Shown here in pieces: positions 22,225 through 22,280 of a stretch of DNA of 64,000 nucleotides. Position numbers and translations under genes: made by a program. Within the stretch, counting starts at the first letter, position 1, and every line of letters begins with the position of its first letter. Source of the DNA: Polynucleobacter sp. MWH-Loch1C5 (GTDB taxonomy: Bacteria > Pseudomonadota > Gammaproteobacteria > Burkholderiales > Burkholderiaceae); the NCBI RefSeq assembly GCF_018881775.1, contig NZ_JACVPR010000001.1:558001-622000 (forward strand). The letters run 5' to 3'. The notes beneath the pieces are model-generated. The model had not been told where the DNA came from. It made no database searches and saw only the letters and a list, made by a program, of their open reading frames with translations.

Positions 22225-22280
22225 ATAGATAGATAGATAGATAGATAGATAGATAGATAGATAGATAGATAGATAGATAG
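22225..22280. repeat. Tetranucleotide microsatellite (ATAG)14 upstream of the rfaH-like gene
   Basis: Fourteen perfect tandem copies of ATAG (CTAT on the transcribed strand) occupy 56 bases. Tandem tetranucleotides of this length are rare in bacteria. Where known (Haemophilus, Moraxella, Neisseria) they are phase-variation sites through slipped-strand mispairing. Here the array is intergenic, 121-176 bases before the antiterminator start, so copy-number change would alter promoter or leader spacing rather than a reading frame. Confidence 0.95.

Follow-up and report, generated by a model that had tools for sequence, protein, structure and literature searches.

An (ATAG)14 array ahead of an rfaH-type capsule antiterminator gene in Polynucleobacter: a plausible graded contingency element

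Does a long tetranucleotide array in front of an antiterminator gene tune the expression of a whole capsule operon, or is it a microsatellite of no consequence for the gene that it precedes? The question was raised by the following element of the window, that is, the entire 64,000-nt stretch of Polynucleobacter DNA that was analysed.

22225..22281, plus strand: (ATAG)14 tetranucleotide array (Tandem Repeats Finder; genome pattern search)

Tandem Repeats Finder returned a period of 4, 14.2 copies, 100% matches and no indels, bearing out the fourteen perfect copies described in the first-pass annotation, with the end of the array at 22281. Read on the coding strand of rfaH the unit is CTAT/TCTA, i.e. 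(CTAT)n. As had been proposed, the array is intergenic and lies 121 nt from the rfaH start codon; a PAP2 ORF (3′ end 22364) is found on one side and the rfaH ORF (start 22104) on the other, both on the minus strand. The spacer between them measures 259 nt and has a GC content of only 22%, against 45.6% for the window, which qualifies the earlier mention of a mid-GC genome. That the array is exceptional for this genome also held. Four consecutive copies of ATAG (16 bases) occur at a single site in the 1,653,530-base genome, with all 11 pattern matches overlapping the array, and the longest tetranucleotide run was 3 copies both in 400 kb of control DNA from the same genome (20 segments of 20 kb) and in three genome-sized strings simulated with an order-3 Markov model. 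A tandem array far above chance is one criterion for a contingency locus, beside variability of copy number and an effect of length on expression, the two features that define such loci, and by both control DNA and simulation the length of (ATAG)14 is far above chance.

An artefact and a mobile-element origin were both weighed. The sequence derives from one assembly in 10 contigs, which leaves some room for a wrong copy number or an array created by assembly error; at 57 bases, however, the array is shorter than a common read length and it lies inside a 1.63 Mb contig, making such an artefact very improbable. The spacer was also considered as a remnant of a mobile element, and this was rejected: it is not matched in phage records, and elsewhere in the genome it has no complete second copy. 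A genome search with the spacer gave just two partial matches, both short, one of which was the inverted repeat described below aligned against itself.

The gene that follows the array and the genes beyond are arranged as follows.

21571..22104, minus strand: rfaH homologue, 177 aa (TIGR01955 profile)
21474..21486, minus strand: exact ops site, GGCGGTAGCGTGC, between rfaH and wzi
19788..21407, minus strand: wzi-like capsule assembly gene (PF14052)
17797..19686, minus strand: polysaccharide export (wza-like) gene
16883..17797, minus strand: Wzz-domain chain-length gene
15652..16752, minus strand: glycosyltransferase family 4 gene (PF00953)

Further polysaccharide genes continue on the minus strand to about position 771. 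With 153.6 bits the rfaH product passes the curated cut-off of the RfaH model TIGR01955 (144.5). It falls below those of the narrower RfaH model NF006534 (120.5 against 124) and the UpxY model (77.1, cut-off 100), and scores under the cut-offs of the LoaP and NusG models too. The alignment of the product with E. coli RfaH chains of solved structure spans residues 14-163. Among the residues of E. coli RfaH described as serving DNA contact and autoinhibition, K10, R73 and E48 (PMC7593976), a by-eye reading of the alignment finds K10 and E48 kept and R73 replaced by K (E. coli numbering). Members of the RfaH group are expected to have ops in the leader of the operon on which they act, and an exact copy of the ops consensus, GGCGGTAGCGTGC, is present here. 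An RfaH score above cut-off, together with an exact ops ahead of wzi, supports the identity of the gene as a capsule-operon antiterminator, in agreement with the first-pass annotation, which had named an rfaH-like capsule antiterminator gene; the wzi, export and Wzz-domain genes follow in order. That the product probably antiterminates this particular capsule operon is what we infer, with good support, from this arrangement.

Scanning of the spacer for promoter-like and structured elements gave the following.

22285..22313, minus strand: P1, best promoter-like site, TTTAAA-17-TATAAT (hexamer-pair scoring)
22185..22225, no strand assigned: inverted repeat abutting the array, with 20-nt arms, 95% complementary, and 1 nt between the arms
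22196-22208 (plus strand) and 22202-22214 (minus strand): exact WATCAANNNNTTR, an IHF-type consensus present on both strands, in the inverted repeat
22150..22179, minus strand: P2, weaker promoter-like site, TTGTAT-18-TATATT, between the inverted repeat and rfaH (second-best score)

P1 ends 3 nt 5′ of the array and has a predicted start about 7 nt further on, at about 22278, within the first repeat unit. When the spacer was resampled 200 times with a Markov model, 2 resamples scored as high; the promoter weights behind the P1 and P2 scores are approximations. A start from P2 would fall near 22143. A plain promoter consensus scan of 21300-22500 showed no excess, with 1 site against a shuffle mean of 3.8. 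The best hexamer pair lies wholly 5′ of the array, and none of the best-scoring pairs (spacers of 15-19) spans it. A position of the array between -35 and -10 was thus rejected, and the sequence does not point to a promoter-spacing effect of this strict kind. Since the best promoter-like site is 3 nt away, the array would open the rfaH leader rather than part the promoter boxes. Of the other positions named earlier, upstream of the promoter or in the 5′ UTR, P1 would place the array at the very start of the leader and the weaker P2 would place it upstream. Judged from these predicted sites, the array is most likely the first part of the rfaH leader, or else upstream spacer DNA of the kind seen at nadA. 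Transcripts reading through from the upstream PAP2 genes may also reach rfaH.

The inverted repeat ranks first among the close inverted repeats listed for the window and, as RNA, would form a stem of -19.5 kcal/mol. It was rejected as an intrinsic terminator, the sequence 3′ of the stem being A-rich on the minus strand and a T run being absent on the plus strand. Its 29-base palindromic core had no match in the genome contigs searched. The IHF-type consensus WATCAANNNNTTR is that of E. coli; it occurred 10 times in the window against a shuffle mean of 4.6, and at 32 sites on both strands of the 400 kb of control DNA. Two TCATGA palindromes, 11 bp apart at 22156-22172, overlap P2 and are possibly an operator.

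These elements allow a second regulatory arrangement, in which transcription would start at P2, the array and the IHF-type/inverted-repeat site would form upstream control DNA, and copy number would change the phasing of that DNA relative to P2. P2 ranks second among the promoter-like sites, both strands carry an exact IHF-type consensus between it and the array, and at nadA IHF sits at the distal edge of a TAAA tract whose repeat number changes the spacing of operators (PMC2791445). Set against this, P2 scores below P1, no repressor is known here, and the IHF-type site was sought only after the inverted repeat had been seen, with an E. coli consensus whose frequency across the window is given above. 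The arrangement as a whole is regarded as distinctly unlikely.

The reading that is favoured, though tentatively and at somewhat less than an even chance, is that the array is a graded contingency element in the rfaH leader or promoter which tunes the whole capsule operon. The sequence itself shows the array, its lack of a second site in the genome, the match to the RfaH family, ops and the gene order; from these are inferred slippage in vivo, the promoter used, an effect on expression and a benefit to the cell. The array would be a microsatellite prone to slippage, located in 5′ regulatory DNA of rfaH, with which the capsule run begins. Transcription would most likely start at P1, beside the array, so that a change in copy number would alter the first ~55 nt of the transcript as well as the distance from P1 to the hairpin and the IHF-type site. 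Variants of different length would then differ in the amount of RfaH made and also in how much transcript enters the operon. RfaH would load at ops, just downstream, and carry RNA polymerase through wzi and the later genes, the outcome being graded, rheostat-like contingency control of the entire capsule. Besides the elements just named, the position of P1 next to the array, the uspA2 array of Moraxella, the poly-C tracts ahead of rfaH in another lineage and the G10 tract in the same locus, all treated below or above, speak for this reading; the lack of an array at other Polynucleobacter rfaH genes, ATAG arrays at unrelated places, the plain consensus scan and possible read-through from PAP2 speak against it. 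A graded contingency element acting on a new kind of target is judged plausible.

A serious rival to graded contingency control, and nearly as likely, is that the array is a neutral microsatellite: slippage would have lengthened it in an AT-rich spacer, perhaps aided by the neighbouring inverted repeat stalling replication, without any effect on rfaH worth selecting. The 22% GC of the spacer is in keeping with this. ATAG arrays were also surveyed in other genomes. At least 5 copies were found in 3 of 186 Polynucleobacter genomes, the source genome included. The other two genomes of the genus carry 6-7 copies at unrelated intergenic places, one directly after the stop of a gene and the other with ~17 nt separating it from the ATG of an ORF unrelated to rfaH, which fits a neutral origin. 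Of 399 genomes from the order, 2 have arrays of at least 8 copies, again counting the source genome; the second, (CTAT)17 at L065:1501-1568, belongs to a different family and lies upstream of an unrelated gene that by eye resembles cytochrome bd subunit I, as a neutral origin would also allow. Against neutrality, no other such run exists in the genome, and these 14 perfect copies stand in the 5′ region of the capsule regulator, and the sole C/G run of at least 9 in the genome lies within the same run of genes.

Conservation of the array was examined at other rfaH genes. At E <= 1e-20, rfaH was found in 15 of 186 genomes of the genus, the source included, and the closest of these to the source are 48-49% identical; proteins 95%, 75% and 61-66% identical to the source RfaH occur in other public assemblies, the 95% identical one (P0121) on a contig of 1,815 bases. 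None of 18 related rfaH genes (14 of them from Polynucleobacter) has an array within about 320 nt upstream of the match, the stretch checked being about 110 nt in L014. An array at the same place in relatives is a supporting rather than strictly defining criterion for a contingency locus, and none was present in relatives of which the closest are 48-49% identical. Since the other Polynucleobacter rfaH genes examined, at this level of identity, lack the array, there is no sign of selection keeping it. The array was accordingly rejected as a conserved feature of rfaH, being absent from every other rfaH surveyed, and this absence too favours a neutral microsatellite.

Other repeats ahead of rfaH were sought in two sets of loci. 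Among the best 80 of 493 named rfaH loci (73 with at least 300 nt upstream), a repeat within 400 nt upstream of rfaH was found in two, L124 and L154, both from MAGs that are related to each other and belong to another lineage of Burkholderiales. The repeats are C12 (L124:2761-2772) and C9 (L154:1225-1233). Each is followed after 11-12 nt by a TATAAT, and each lies between a divergent gene and rfaH, in regions that are homologous and 73-74% identical. Homopolymers of at least 9 numbered four in the 456 kb of the 80 loci, including these two. In L154 the ORF that follows rfaH, by eye similar to wzz, also contains a hexanucleotide repeat, (GGCACA)11, at about 2155. The second set comprised 63 rows, namely the 18 related genes and 45 others, of which 30 had loci and 15 were fetched, with at least 300 nt upstream in 61; the partial row G442:C29 and, from E 2e-18 upwards, weaker rows resembling NusG fall outside it. 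It counts one locus twice (L013 = L172), takes two rows from L200 and includes in L204 a match that holds a stop. Here upstream repeats were present only in the source genome and in L188 (a three-copy 7-mer). A repeat ahead of rfaH is therefore rare, yet not confined to the source genome.

The same two sets were used to follow the ops site. In the 600 nt that follow rfaH, an ops-like core, GGCGGTAG[CT], was found at 17 of the 79 named loci whose sequence sufficed (0 in the antisense control), and in the second set at 19 of 58 rows (1 in the antisense control), the 79-locus and 58-row sets overlapping partly, with a few species in common. Its presence in both sets indicates that the rfaH-ops layout recurs. 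A broader proposal is that, in free-living Burkholderiales, contingency control by repeats has arisen repeatedly at antiterminator genes of the RfaH type, with the ATAG array here and an independent poly-C at the rfaH promoter elsewhere each tuning a whole capsule operon through one antiterminator, in hosts whose enemies would be phages and grazers, not an immune system. We consider this broader proposal rather doubtful.

Poly-C/G tracts, a further class of slippage-prone sequence, were examined in the window and across the genus. One tract lies far downstream in the same run of genes.

2417..3559, minus strand: glycosyltransferase-like gene (PF13524), far down the rfaH-wzi polysaccharide run
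3506..3515, minus strand: G10 tract (C10 on the plus strand), in the 5′ coding region of this gene

The tract covers codons 15-18 of the gene and is the genome's only C/G run of at least 9. In the nearest relative, 94% identical, the stretch IAEGGGAPK is kept, and a methionine is missing at the later start used by another call of the same G10-bearing gene (P0001, P0002). The kept glycine stretch and the lack of a later methionine suggest that translation probably passes through the G10 tract, where slippage would shift the frame. The longest C/G runs in three simulated genomes were 9, 11 and 12, and simulation did not uphold a poly-G beyond chance; as evidence of phase variation the tract is suggestive, not proof. 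Across the genus, C/G runs of at least 10 were found in 54 of 186 genomes, the source included, the longest among the fetched tracts being 23. From at least 63 distinct tracts (counted by eye), 62 were examined, one at a contig end being left out; 4 of the 62 have no ORF nearby, and of the remaining 58, 45 are not inside the longest nearby ORF, their neighbouring genes being of varied kinds. Poly-C/G tracts were for this reason rejected as proof of genus-wide phase variation. In two Polynucleobacter species a poly-G tract (G10 and G12, at L230:1501 and L238:1501) lies 44-45 nt before the start of a PF00953 glycosyltransferase family 4 gene, at matching positions before a TATAAT, and may be a promoter repeat differing in length. 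In two Polynucleobacter genomes a Polysacc_synt_2 gene has, close to its 3′ end, a poly-G tract, of 12 in one (L275:1727) and 10 in the other (L286:1784).

Phase variation is described as typical of genes for surface features in bacterial pathogens with small genomes (PMC11475388). If graded control by the ATAG array holds, one repeat would stand atop a whole capsule pathway in a bacterium that, judging by its genus, presumably lives in fresh water, and would act through an operon-specific antiterminator; its copy number would be a simple, countable marker with which to ask whether phages or grazers select capsule states in lakes. No paper on phase variation or simple sequence repeats in Polynucleobacter was found in the open-access literature searched. 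Nor did that literature, which excludes most subscription journals, yield among the titles listed a described case of a repeat controlling an RfaH homologue, and the first-pass annotation's statement that none is known stands to this extent.

The described systems nearest to this one resemble it in different respects. RfaH-dependent capsules with ops upstream of the capsule genes are described in Vibrio vulnificus and E. coli K96 (PMC7247339, PMC13410964), a layout shared here. The V. vulnificus rfaH knockout forms translucent, apparently phase-locked colonies (PMC7247339), and the K96 capsule needs RfaH, with phase-variable mutations located in kpsC, not rfaH (PMC13410964). Unlike in either of these, rfaH here lies directly before ops and the operon, with the array in front. 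Some NusG paralogues are encoded inside the operons that they regulate (PMC7593976), and the upxY genes of Bacteroidales are the nearest described phase-variable first-gene antiterminators, often being the first gene behind invertible promoters (PMC8748976). Like rfaH here, upxY is often the first gene of its polysaccharide operon, and these operons are phase-variable; the switch, however, is promoter inversion rather than repeat length, and UpxY belongs to a different subfamily from the RfaH found here.

Closer in mechanism are repeats that grade transcription. The T-tract of Helicobacter pylori sabA is likewise a promoter-proximal repeat acting as a rheostat, although on a different gene (PMC4081817). 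In Neisseria meningitidis the TAAA repeats of nadA adjoin an IHF site and NadR operators; IHF binds the distal edge of the tract, and repeat number alters operator spacing (PMC2791445). Both nadA and rfaH thus have an array in the 5′ region near an IHF or IHF-type site, with an effect through spacing in nadA, but the nadA array lies upstream of its promoter and has known NadR operators, whereas at rfaH the array separates the gene from its best promoter-like site. Closest of all the described cases is uspA2 in Moraxella catarrhalis with its AGAT array, located 132 bp upstream of the ORF and counting 14, 13 and 18 copies in three tabulated array-bearing strains, its length shifting mRNA levels up to 3.37-fold (PMC7302503). 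The two arrays share the same tetranucleotide unit, on opposite strands, and a position 5′ of the ORF, and in uspA2 array length tunes the mRNA. In the light of such few-fold changes the term "master switch" in the first-pass annotation is a strong one. The target of the uspA2 array is an outer-membrane protein and its effect has been measured, whereas the array described here, known from sequence alone, fronts an operon-specific antiterminator.
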